Source: a bacterium BMS3Bbin13
Lineage (GTDB): Bacteria; Pseudomonadota; Gammaproteobacteria; 21-64-14
DNA length: 62,335 nucleotides
NCBI GenBank assembly: GCA_002897735.1
Contig: BDTW01000048.1
Span: 1 to 62,335 of the forward strand
Direction of reading: 5' to 3'
Shown: positions 23,298 to 36,685 of the stretch, one piece after another
Numbering within the stretch: the first letter of the stretch is position 1
How the letters are laid out: each line of letters starts with the position of its first letter
Notes under the pieces: model-generated
Database searches by the model: none
Seen by the model: the letters and a program-made list of their open reading frames with translations, nothing else
What the model was told of the DNA's origin: nothing
Made by a program: the position numbers and the translations under genes

Positions 23298-23657
23298 ATG
23301 CCAAGAGTCAAACGAGGGGTCACCGCCCGCGCCCGGCACAAGAAGGTGCTCGGCAAGGCGAAGGGCTATTATAACGGCCGTCGCAAAGTCTACCGCGTCG
23401 CCAAGCAGGCGGTCACCAAGGCCGCGCAGTACGCTTACCGCGACCGGCGCCAGCGCAAGCGCCAGTTCCGGGGCCTGTGGATCGTGCGCATCAACGCGGC
23501 CGCCCGCGAGTGTGGGCTTTCGTACAGTCGCTTCATGGATGGTCTGCACAAGGCCGCGATCGAGGTCGACCGCAAGGTCCTCGCGGATCTCGCGGTGTGC
23601 GACAAGGCGGCGTTCGCCGCGCTTGCGGAGCAGGCGAAGGCCGCGCTTCCCGGTTAG
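23298..23657 (+). CDS. rplT: Ribosomal protein L20 (bL20)
   Basis: The 119-residue basic protein has [20 protein letters not shown] and [20 protein letters not shown], typical of bL20. It assembles early onto 23S rRNA and commonly represses its own operon. An intrinsic terminator follows 35 bp after the stop, so readthrough to pheS should be limited. Confidence 0.97.
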
Positions 23658-25151
<1,494 letters not shown>

Positions 25152-25173
25152 CGCGGGTCGCGCGGCATCGGTG

Positions 25174-26155
25174 GTAGGGCGGGCCCCGGCCCGCCGAGGA
25201 CGTTGGGGCGTGCGCGACGGTGGAAGGGTCATGCGTCGTCGGCCGGGCAAGCCCGGCCCTACAGGTGGCACGTGGTAGGGCGGGCCTTGGCCCGCCGAGG
25301 ATGTTGGGTCGTGCGCAACGGTGGAAGGGTCGTGCGCCGTCGGCCGGACAAGCCCGGCCCTACAGGTGGCACGCGGTAGGGCGGGCCTTGGCCCGCCGAG
25401 GACGTTGGGGTCGTGCGCAACGGTGGAAGGGTCGTGCGCCGCCGGCCGGGCAATCCCGGCCCTACAGGTGGCACGTGGTAGGGCGGGCCTTGGCCCGCCG
25501 AGGACGTTGGTGCGTGCGCAACGGTGGAAGGGTCGTGCGCCGCCGGCCGGGCAAGCCCGGCCCTACAGGTGGCACGTGGTAGGGCGGGCCTCGGCCCGCC
25601 GAGGACGTTGGGGCGTGCGCAACGGTGGAAGGGTCGTGCGCCGTCGGCCGGACAAGCCCGGCCCTACAGGTGGCACGCGGTAGGGCGGGCCTTGGCCCGC
25701 CGAGGACGTTGGTGCGTGCGCAACGGTGGAAGGGTCGTGCGCCGCCGGCCGGGCAAGCCCGGCCCTACGGGTGGCACGCGGTAGGGCGGGCCCCGGCCCG
25801 CCGAGGACGTTGGGGCGTGCGCGGCGGTGGAAGGGTCGTGCGCCGCCGGCCGGACAAGCCCGGCCCTACAGGTGGCACGCGGTAGGGCGGGCCTTGGCCC
25901 GCCGAGGACGTTGGGGTCGTGCGCGGCGGTGGAAGGGTCGTGCGCCGCCGGCCGGACAATCCCGGCCCTACGGGTGGCACGCGGTAGGGCGGGCCTTGGC
26001 CCGCCGAGGACGTTGGGGCGTGCGCAACGGTGGAAGGGTTGTGCGCCGCCGGCCGGACAAGCCCGGCCCTACGGGTGGCACGTGGTAGGGCGGGCCTTGG
26101 CCCGCCGAGGATGTTGGGGTCGTGCGCGGCGGTGGAAGGGTCGTGCGCCGTCGGC
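25174..26155. repeat. Tandem array of ten 101-102 bp REP-pair (BIME-like) units between pheS and pheT
   Basis: GTAGGGCGGGCC begins units at 25174, 25275, 25376, 25478, 25579, 25680, 25781, 25882, 25984 and 26085; spacing is 101 bp except two steps of 102. Each unit has a direct hairpin (GTAG, then GGCGGGCC-TT-GGCCCGCC), a linker of about 45 bp, and an inverted relative (GGCCGGGC-AA-GCCCGGCC, then CTAC). The tenth unit breaks off before its second hairpin. Changes in the stems are mostly single and keep G-U pairing on one strand. Because the period is not a multiple of three, the open frames across it are artefacts. Confidence 0.93.
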
Positions 26156-26181
26156 TTGGCGAATGGGGACGAAAGGCGGAT

Positions 26182-28560
26182 ATGCGGTTCAGTGAAGCAT
26201 GGTTGCGCGAGTGGGTGAATCCGCCGGTCTCCACGCGGGATCTGGCCGGGCAACTCACTATGGCCGGTCTCGAGGTGGATTCGGTCATGCCCGCCGCGCC
26301 GGCGTTCACCGGCGTAGTGGTTGCGGAGATCCTCTCCGCGGATCGGCATCCCGACGCCGACAAGCTGCGGGTATGCCGTGTCGCAGCGGGAGAGGGCGAG
26401 CCCCTCCAAGTGGTGTGCGGCGCCCCCAACGCCCGCGTCGGCTTGCACGTGCCGCTGGCGCGGGAGGGTGCCCGGTTGCCGGGCGACCTGCGTATCCGCC
26501 GTGCGCGCCTGCGCGGCGTGGAATCGCGGGGCATGCTGTGCTCGGCCCGGGAACTGGGTCTGAGCGAGGAGCATGCGGGGCTCATGGAGCTGCCGGCGGA
26601 CGCGCCGGTCGGCACGGACCTGCGCCGTTACCTGGATCTCGGCGATCAGGTGCTCGACCTCGATCTCACGCCCAACCGAGGCGACTGCCTGGGGCTCGCG
26701 GGGATTGCCCGCGAGGTCGGTGTGCTCAACCGCTGTCCGGTGACTGCGCCGTCCGCCGCCCCCGTTGCGGCCGCCGTCGCGGACCGGTTCCCGGTAACCG
26801 TAGAGGCCGCCGCGGATTGCCCGCGCTACCTCGGCCGGGTGATCCGCGGTCTCGATGCGCGCGCACCCACTCCCTTGTGGATGCAGGAGCGGCTGCGTCG
26901 TAGCGGGCTGCGCAGTCTGGGTCCGTTGGTCGACGTGACCAACTACCTGTTGCTGGAATATGGGCAGCCCCTGCACGCGTTCGATCTCGCGCGACTCGCG
27001 GATGGAATCCAGGTACGCCGCGCGCGTGCCGGCGAGCGCCTGACCCTGCTCGACGGTCGCGAGATCGAGTTGGATCCCGAGACACTGGTGATCGCCGACG
27101 CGCGGCGGGTCCTCGCACTGGCGGGAATCATGGGCGGCGCGGATTCCGGGGTGGGTGAGGAGACCACGGACGTGTTTCTCGAGTGCGCGTTCTTCACCCC
27201 GGCGGCGGTCGCCGGTCGCGCGCGCCGCTACGGGTTACGCACCGAGTCCTCGCACCGCTTCGAACGCGGCGTCGATCCCGCGATCCAGACGGTGGCCATG
27301 GAGCGGGCGACGGCGCTGCTGCTGGCGATCGCCGGCGGAAGCCCCGGGCCTGTGATCGAGACCGCTACGCCGGAACACCTGCCGCGGCGTGCCGCCGTCC
27401 GACTGCGTTCGGCACGCATCGAGCGCCTGCTGGGCGTGGATCTTCCCGGCGGGGAGGTGGAGGAAATCCTGCAACGCCTCGGCATGGAGGTCGAACGGGA
27501 CGGGTCGCAGTGGCGGGTGAGCGTCCCGACCCACCGCTTCGATATCGACTCGGAGGTGGATCTCATCGAGGAACTGGCGCGTGTATACGGCTACGATCGG
27601 TTGCCCGGCACCCGGCCGTCGGGCGGCGTCGCGATGATCCCGCAGCCGGAGGGCCGGGTCGAGGTGGGCCGGATCCGTACGGCCCTGGTCGACCGGGGCT
27701 ACCAGGAGGTCGTCACCTACAGCTTCGTGGATCCGGCGCTCCAGGCGCGGCTCGCCCCGAATTTGGATTCGCTCTCGCTCACCAACCCCCTTTCGGTGGA
27801 ACTGGCGGTGCTCCGGACGAGTCTCTGGACGGGGTTGCTGAAGGTCCTGATTCACAATCAGAATCGTCAACAGACACGGGTGAGGATCTTCGAGTGTGGT
27901 CTAAGGTTTATCAAGCAACAGTCCGAAATAAAACAGGAAAACACAATCAGCGGCTTGGCGGCCGGGGGCACCTATCCGGAGCAGTGGGGGTCTCCCTCCC
28001 AAGCCGTTGATTTCTACGACGTGAAATCCGATCTCGAGGCCCTGATGGATTTGACGGGTCGAAATGAGGGGTTTATCTTTACCCCGGCGGTTCACCCGGC
28101 CCTCCACCCCGGCCAGACGGCCCGGATCCATTGCAAAGGCGTCCCCGTGGGGTGGCTGGGGACTCTTCACCCGGAGTTGCAAAAGGAGCTGGAAGTTGCG
28201 GAGCGGGTAGTGCTTTTCGAGTTGAGCCTCGATCATTTGCAAGAGGTTCGGATGCCCGCATTCCAGGAGTTGTCGCGCTTCCCCGCCAATCGTAGGGATT
28301 TGGCGGTGGTCGTGGACGAGGCGGTGAGCGCCGCGGCGGTGCGGGAGTGCATCGTGCGCCATGCGCCGGAGGTCCTGCAAGAGGTGATCCTGTTTGATGT
28401 CTACCGGGGAAAAGGCGTAGAGGCAGGGCGAAGAAGTATCGCTTTTGGATTGATTTTTCAGGATTCTTCTCGTACCCTTGCGGATCAGGACATGGATGCC
28501 ATCCTCGCGGGGGTGGTGGCAGGGCTCGAACAAGAACTGGGTGCTACGTTACGAGGATAA
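26182..28560 (+). CDS. pheT: Phenylalanyl-tRNA synthetase beta subunit
   Basis: The 792-residue protein has an N-terminal tRNA-binding OB-fold domain (about 40-150, with HPDADKLRVCRV and GVESRGMLCSARELGL), B3/B4 editing and B5 domains. The C-terminal FDX-ACB anticodon domain contains LSRFPANRRDLAVVVDEAVS. It pairs with PheS to charge tRNA-Phe and edits mischarged Tyr. The start MRFSEAWLREWV at 26182 has AAGGCGG before it; the in-frame upstream ATG 26122 lies inside the repeat array. Base use in residues 580-620 (AAxEIKQENTI) is less GC-rich than the rest. Confidence 0.96.
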   Translation: MRFSEAWLREWVNPPVSTRDLAGQLTMAGLEVDSVMPAAPAFTGVVVAEILSADRHPDADKLRVCRVAAGEGEPLQVVCGAPNARVGLHVPLAREGARLPGDLRIRRARLRGVESRGMLCSARELGLSEEHAGLMELPADAPVGTDLRRYLDLGDQVLDLDLTPNRGDCLGLAGIAREVGVLNRCPVTAPSAAPVAAAVADRFPVTVEAAADCPRYLGRVIRGLDARAPTPLWMQERLRRSGLRSLGPLVDVTNYLLLEYGQPLHAFDLARLADGIQVRRARAGERLTLLDGREIELDPETLVIADARRVLALAGIMGGADSGVGEETTDVFLECAFFTPAAVAGRARRYGLRTESSHRFERGVDPAIQTVAMERATALLLAIAGGSPGPVIETATPEHLPRRAAVRLRSARIERLLGVDLPGGEVEEILQRLGMEVERDGSQWRVSVPTHRFDIDSEVDLIEELARVYGYDRLPGTRPSGGVAMIPQPEGRVEVGRIRTALVDRGYQEVVTYSFVDPALQARLAPNLDSLSLTNPLSVELAVLRTSLWTGLLKVLIHNQNRQQTRVRIFECGLRFIKQQSEIKQENTISGLAAGGTYPEQWGSPSQAVDFYDVKSDLEALMDLTGRNEGFIFTPAVHPALHPGQTARIHCKGVPVGWLGTLHPELQKELEVAERVVLFELSLDHLQEVRMPAFQELSRFPANRRDLAVVVDEAVSAAAVRECIVRHAPEVLQEVILFDVYRGKGVEAGRRSIAFGLIFQDSSRTLADQDMDAILAGVVAGLEQELGATLRG

Positions 28561-29348: not shown

Positions 29349-29707
29349 CATCGGCAGCTCCCGGATTCCGCTTCGCTCGATCCGGGCTACATCGACGAGA
29401 CGCCATCCATGTAGCCTGGATGCAGGCCGAAGGCCGAAATCCAGGGATTTCACCCTGAGGGAGGCGGGCCCAAACCCTCCCTTCCCAGAGCACCGAACAC
29501 CCATAAGTCAAGCCTGACCCCGCGCTCTCATCGGCAGCTCCCGGATTCCGCTTCGCCCGATCCGGGCTACATCGACGAGACGCCATCCATGTAGCCTGGA
29601 TGCAGGCCGAAGGCCGAAATCCAGGGATTTCACCCTGAGGGAAGCTGGCCCAAACCCTCCCTTCCCAGAGCACCGAATGCCCATAAGTCAAGCCTGACCC
29701 CGTGCTT
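29349..29707. repeat. Two tandem 180-bp copies of a REP-pair module with CCCATAAGTCAAG end
   Basis: Copies at 29349-29528 and 29529-29707 are nearly identical. Each holds an inverted hairpin ending CCGGGCTAC (29360-29390 and 29540-29570), then a direct hairpin starting GTAGCCTGGAT and closing ATCCAGG (29411-29446 and 29591-29626). Each ends with the arm sequence CCCATAAGTCAAGCCTGACC also seen at 20031-20242. The GTAG foot makes these REP-like but of a different family from the pheST array. The second copy runs into the stop codon of the following leftward gene. Confidence 0.88.
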
Positions 29708-36482: not shown

Positions 36483-36685
36483 CCGGCAACGTTGGGGGGA
36501 CCCGCCGCGATTATTCCATGAGCCGCATGGTCGGCCGGGCGAGCCCGGCCCTACGGGTGGTCGAATGCGCCGGGCGGGCGTGCCCCGCCGGGACGGCTAT
36601 TCTCCCGTAGGGCGGGGCGTGCCCCGCCGGCAACGTTGGGGGGATCTGCCGCGATTATTCCATGGGCCGCATGGTCGGCCGGGAG
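36483..36685. repeat. Duplicated segment with REP-type hairpins (145-bp period)
   Basis: A block containing CGGCAACGTTGGGGGGA and GATTATTCCATG recurs at 36483 and 36628. Between the copies are an inverted hairpin ending GGCCCTAC (36533-36554) and a direct one, GTAGGGCGGGGC (36607-36628), of the pheST-array family. The linker ACGTTGGGG is also shared with that array. Confidence 0.7.

Follow-up and report, generated by a model that had tools for sequence, protein, structure and literature searches.

The genes pheS and pheT in the window (the whole 62,335-nucleotide stretch that was analysed) are separated by a tandem array of REP elements, which is a BIME-2-like REPIN cluster of the GTAG superfamily. 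We consider it probable that this is a selfish array tolerated inside the operon, derived from an ancestral insertion, amplified locally and separately in each species, read through by RNA polymerase, and likely to leave more pheS than pheT mRNA. The window's genome (G000) is a draft of 2.69 Mb in 62 contigs. It was compared with the genome of a congener (G001), the sole other one in the genus. No publication describing a repeat array at pheS-pheT was found in a literature search.

Architecture of the pheS-pheT gap

Both genes were complete by Pfam, and each is present in a single copy in the genome. Comparison with the congener gave a dN of 0.111 and a dS of 0.709 for pheS and a dN of 0.163 and a dS of 0.939 for pheT; both genes are under purifying selection. 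The limits that an earlier note on this DNA had given for the gap were exact: the pheS stop codon ends at 25151 and the pheT ATG begins at 26182, leaving precisely 1,030 bp. The note was also right that the two genes normally lie close together. Across 96 loci, the median pheS-pheT gap was 26 bp and the 95th percentile was 133 bp. The two largest gaps were those of the window and of the congener (441 bp), and the other 94 did not exceed 249 bp. The region contains the following features.

23793 to 23935, no strand assigned: three REPs of the array's family, between rplT and pheS
23954 to 24015, forward strand: decayed REPIN with an array-like spacer (82% over 62 bp; 36 of 44 spacer positions shared with unit 1)
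24123 to 25151, forward strand: pheS, phenylalanyl-tRNA synthetase alpha subunit (Pfam PF01409, 355.8 bits; PF02912)
25152 to 25173, forward strand: spacer of 22 nt from the pheS stop to the first GTAG
25173 to 26155, forward strand: tandem REPIN array, nine complete units of 101 to 102 bp and a truncated tenth
25174 to 25262, no strand assigned: first complete REPIN (unit 1), RNA fold of -54.9 kcal/mol, z of -2.73
26085 to 26106, forward strand: tenth direct REP, unpaired, adjoining the pheT leader
26107 to 26181, forward strand: linker remnant and pheT leader, with the ribosome-site-like GAAAGGCGGAT before the ATG
26182 to 28560, forward strand: pheT, phenylalanyl-tRNA synthetase beta subunit, domain set complete (Pfam PF03483, PF17759, PF03147, PF03484, PF01588)

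Tandem Repeats Finder described the array with a period of 101, 9.7 copies, 94% matches and a score of 1680; no array in the rest of the window scored above 674. The repeated element is the REP GTAGGGCSGGSNNNNSCCSGCC, a 22-bp palindrome in which a GTAG tag precedes a short stem-loop (stem of 7 bp, loop of 4). The REPs of the array are perfect palindromes, and a single one folds at about -16 kcal/mol, lower than its shuffles, as a 7-bp GC hairpin. Ten direct REPs lie in the gap (GTAGGGCGGGCC..GGCCCGCC), starting at 25174, 25275, 25376, 25478, 25579, 25680, 25781, 25882, 25984 and 26085. Nine inverted REPs (GTAGGGCCGGGC..GCCCGGCC, on the other strand) lie there too, the first ending at 25262 and the other eight further downstream. 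Each head-to-head pair spans 89 to 90 bp from GTAG to CTAC, and successive pairs are separated by a tail-to-tail gap of 12 bp. The description of these repeats as REP pairs with direct and inverted GTAG hairpins was therefore borne out as a GTAG-type REP array. The count of ten such pairs held for nine; the tenth unit consists of a direct REP and most of the linker only, and the pheT leader stands where the inverted partner would be. The RNA fold of the unit at 25579 had a z of -1.07.

The last 7 bases before the pheT ATG, GGCGGAT, are identical in the congener. Open reading frames of 120 to 122 amino acids run within the array. They were rejected as coding: they recur with the repeat unit and owe their existence to GC-rich DNA with few stop codons. 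An Rfam search returned tRNAs only.

The REP family in the genome and the genus

The REP pattern gave 159/189 matches in the 2.69-Mb draft compared to 1/3 for the reversed control, which excludes chance. The congener yielded 226/220 matches, and five other genomes of the class contained at most one match each. Tandem same-strand matches numbered 74 in the window's genome and 115 in the congener. The pheS-pheT array is not a rarity within its genome: dozens of gaps in both species hold such arrays.

We examined REP clusters chosen around known REP sites, which constitute a sample and not a census. Gene orientation was taken from a gene-calling model trained on verified genes, which recovered fis, purH, purD, RAYT (REP-associated tyrosine transposase), accC, accB and aroQ with order and strands as expected. 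Among the 49 sampled clusters of at least two REPs, 48 lay between called genes, and the flanking gene pairs were co-directional in 30 cases, convergent in 17 and divergent in 1. This orientation bias is the usual gene-3'-end distribution of REPs. REP clusters in the congener separate fis from purH, purH from purD, and accC from accB, and accB and accC are split by REPs in the window's genome too. An operon split by REPs is therefore ordinary in this genus, whose REPs also enter normally tight operons such as accB-accC, purH-purD and pheS-pheT. It is length that stands out in the pheS-pheT array. With 19 REPs, it was the largest of the sampled clusters; the next had 15 when REPs were joined over 260 bp and 11 under a tighter clustering rule.

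In the clusters of the two genomes, the length of the head-to-head REP pair was nearly constant across loci, mostly 86 to 97 bp. Spacer identity had a median of 0.89 within a locus versus 0.63 between loci. Spacers that are alike within and unlike between loci indicate that the arrays grow in place.

The window holds other repeats of this general kind. A further GTAGGGC REP pair, arranged tail to tail, lies at 36533-36628. A different GTAG hairpin repeat (GTAGCCTGGATGCAGGCC...ATCCAGG) forms two 180-bp tandem copies after tRNA-Pro, at 29349-29706, and also flanks a second TnpA-REP-like gene of the genome (L146, G000:C21, about 2.2 kb).

The earlier note had advised a search for a Y1 transposase matching the GTAGGGC hairpins. 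Such a gene was found in the congener. In the draft of the window's genome no ortholog of it was detected, the best matches reaching 28 to 38% identity. The congener RAYT (L143 / L173, G001:C36, 195.5-198.9 kb) lies in the purD-accC gap, encodes 156 amino acids, scores 147 bits against NF047646 (cut-off 80) and has GTAGGGC REPs on both sides. Its sole match among solved structures was TnpA-REP, 4er8. The syntenic purD-accC gap of the window's genome is without a RAYT and contains a Phd/YefM-type antitoxin gene (PF02604; L186 4680-5428, G000:C33, about 8.68-9.43 kb), probably with a YoeB-like partner; a REP remnant lies there too. Eight Y1 transposase Pfam matches in the draft (L001-L008) had no GTAGGGC REP hairpin within flanks of about 1.5 kb. 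Two of these are at contig ends, and most are of a larger type, with open frames of 233 to 339 amino acids. Either the window's species lost its RAYT or the draft misses it.

History of the array

The earlier note had named relatives always carrying unrelated sequence in this gap as a case against its proposal. Within the congener's 441-bp gap lie six REPs of the same family, three of them direct and three inverted. The inverted REP that comes first there, taken with its flanks, matched the window array at 37 of 38 positions, compared to 33 for the best match outside the gap. Between the two species, the spacers of this gap show no relationship (identity of 0.40 to 0.45). Because the founder REP matches together with its flanks and the spacers differ, the simplest reading is a single REP insertion before the species split, with amplification separate since. 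A REPIN would have landed in the pheS-pheT gap of the common ancestor of the genus, presumably moved by a RAYT, and each descendant would afterwards have expanded the locus in tandem on its own, whether through slippage, unequal recombination or processing by the transposase.

The earlier inference of recent tandem amplification thus stands as to tandem amplification and not as to its date. The founder REP appears to be older than the split (pheS dS of about 0.7). Alignment of units 1 to 9 shows 16 variable columns, with units 4 and 6 in agreement over the first 80; this variation fits repeated block duplication and not one very recent burst. The amplification would then be later than the insertion without being brand new.

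Palindromic repeats of other kinds occupy the pheS-pheT gap in some other gammaproteobacteria (L029 4518-4684, L030 4515-4763, L035 4530-4649), and the gap thus seems tolerant of small mobile repeats.

Together with the array, the REPs of the rplT-pheS gap bracket pheS. In the congener, the two gaps flanking pheS share a spacer, with 86% identity over 204 bp. The case that related REPINs bracket pheS is strong for the congener and suggestive only for the window's genome. REPINs placed around pheS could recombine. When copying between neighbouring gaps was examined, an identity of at least 0.86 was found in 2 of 22 near pairs versus about 10 of 464 far pairs, which is suggestive only of preferential copying of REPINs into neighbouring gaps.

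Probable transcription through the array, and its possible roles

No terminator-like or sigma70-like site was detected in 23600-26300 by consensus scans, which are weak in a GC-rich genome. The pheS-pheT gap contains no run of three T. In windows of 78 nt, the C/G ratio was at most 0.88 on the sense strand in all cases and above 1.13 on the antisense strand throughout; the sense strand of the array is G-rich in every one. Taken together, these features argue for read-through of the array by RNA polymerase. They do not favour the earlier suggestion that pheT is driven by its own promoter, nor a loss of PheT through a terminator or Rho. Attraction of IHF, also proposed in that note, is at odds with the absence of the consensus WATCARNNNNTTR from the array on either strand.

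According to our preferred explanation, a tolerated selfish array, transcription would enter the array from pheS and continue, as the array has neither a U-tract nor the C-rich sense RNA favoured by Rho. Tolerance would follow from these same properties, from the position of the array after the pheS stop codon, and from the intact ribosome site of pheT. In the malE-malF operon, hairpins of the intercistronic repeats stop 3'-5' exonucleases after cleavage, leading to differential decay within the operon (PMC5927463). By analogy, hairpins of the array may block 3'-5' exonucleases so that pheS mRNA outlasts pheT mRNA. Two observations count against this explanation. Rho would ordinarily have access to an untranslated RNA of about 1 kb, G-rich or not, and no RAYT ortholog was found in the window's own draft, where the antitoxin gene stands in its place.

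PheS and PheT are needed 2:2, and a shift in their ratio is therefore without obvious use. This bears on the idea of a regulatory element under selection, giving PheS above PheT or a condition-coupled pheT and tuned by unit number. The unmatched size of the array among the sampled clusters (19 REPs versus 15 for the next), the occupation of the same junction in both species of the genus, and the known role of the malE-malF structure in setting a subunit ratio (PMC5927463) all speak for such an element. Spacers, unit length and copy number differ between the two species, however, and similar arrays are present at many unrelated junctions. Moreover, the first REP lies 22 nt past the pheS stop, beyond the distance of less than 16 nt from the stop at which REPs of E. 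coli affect translation (PMC12306157). We regard selection for regulation as quite unlikely. A narrower proposal, in which array length sets PheS above PheT via differential decay, gain and loss of units tune the ratio over short evolutionary times, and the REPINs bracketing pheS could drive its duplication or loss, is a long shot. Also unlikely, in our view, is a division into two transcription units, with pheS transcripts ending inside the array and a pheT promoter at or within it. A gap of 1 kb is long enough for this, a promoter or modulator function has been proposed for the REP arrays of Thauera (PMC3733652), and REPs in E. coli can assist termination by Rho, as quoted in PMC2817692. The empty promoter and terminator scans, weak as they are, and a sense C/G ratio that opposes Rho loading stand against it.

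The array could also be a chromosome-structure site that binds gyrase, with its placement in pheST incidental. In E. coli, BIME-2 arrays, including that of sucB-sucC, are bound and cut by gyrase independently of transcription, but the enzyme favours y-type REPs and, within their stems, the non-complementary parts (PMC6379681). The window REPs are perfect palindromes, and we find this role very unlikely. Finally, array copy number is not certain, since it rests on the assembly of the draft, and a genome in 62 contigs with internal array repeats reaching 99 bp invites the suspicion of an artefact. No exact repeat in the array is longer than that, and every k-mer of at least 101 is unique there, so an assembly graph with k of at least 101, or long reads, resolves it. 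The units also carry a distinctive pattern of variants, and the presence of an array at this locus is independent of the assembly because the congener has one in the same gap. An artefactual copy number is highly unlikely.

The gap is a clean natural example of REPIN-array growth within an essential operon that encodes two subunits. Because the congeners share the founder and differ in their arrays, they offer a usable test of an effect on subunit ratio versus mere tolerance.

Comparison with described systems places the array among known repeats. Like the REPIN clusters of Pseudomonas fluorescens SBW25 (PMC3116915), it is built from an inverted REP doublet in near-identical tandem copies that include the flanks, with locus-specific spacers and an association with a RAYT (here in the congener). 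The largest SBW25 cluster, in contrast, has four REPINs and one REP, whereas nine and one are found here, in an essential operon. As in E. coli BIME-2 elements such as that of sucB-sucC, direct and inverted REPs alternate in tandem within an operon; the stem of the E. coli repeats is bulged, unlike the perfect palindromes of the window, and its sequence is different (PMC6379681). The malE-malF operon of E. coli likewise has stable hairpins in an intercistronic gap (PMC5927463), although its hairpins are few compared to the 19 REPs here, co-transcription is in our case deduced from sequence, and the pheST partners form a 2:2 complex with no evident need for unequal amounts. With the GTAG palindromic repeat superfamily (PMC3733652), the array shares the GTAG tag at one end, the HH dimers, and the frequent clusters that include flanking DNA segments. 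The array is thus of a known repeat kind and mostly ordinary for its genome; what sets it apart is its length.
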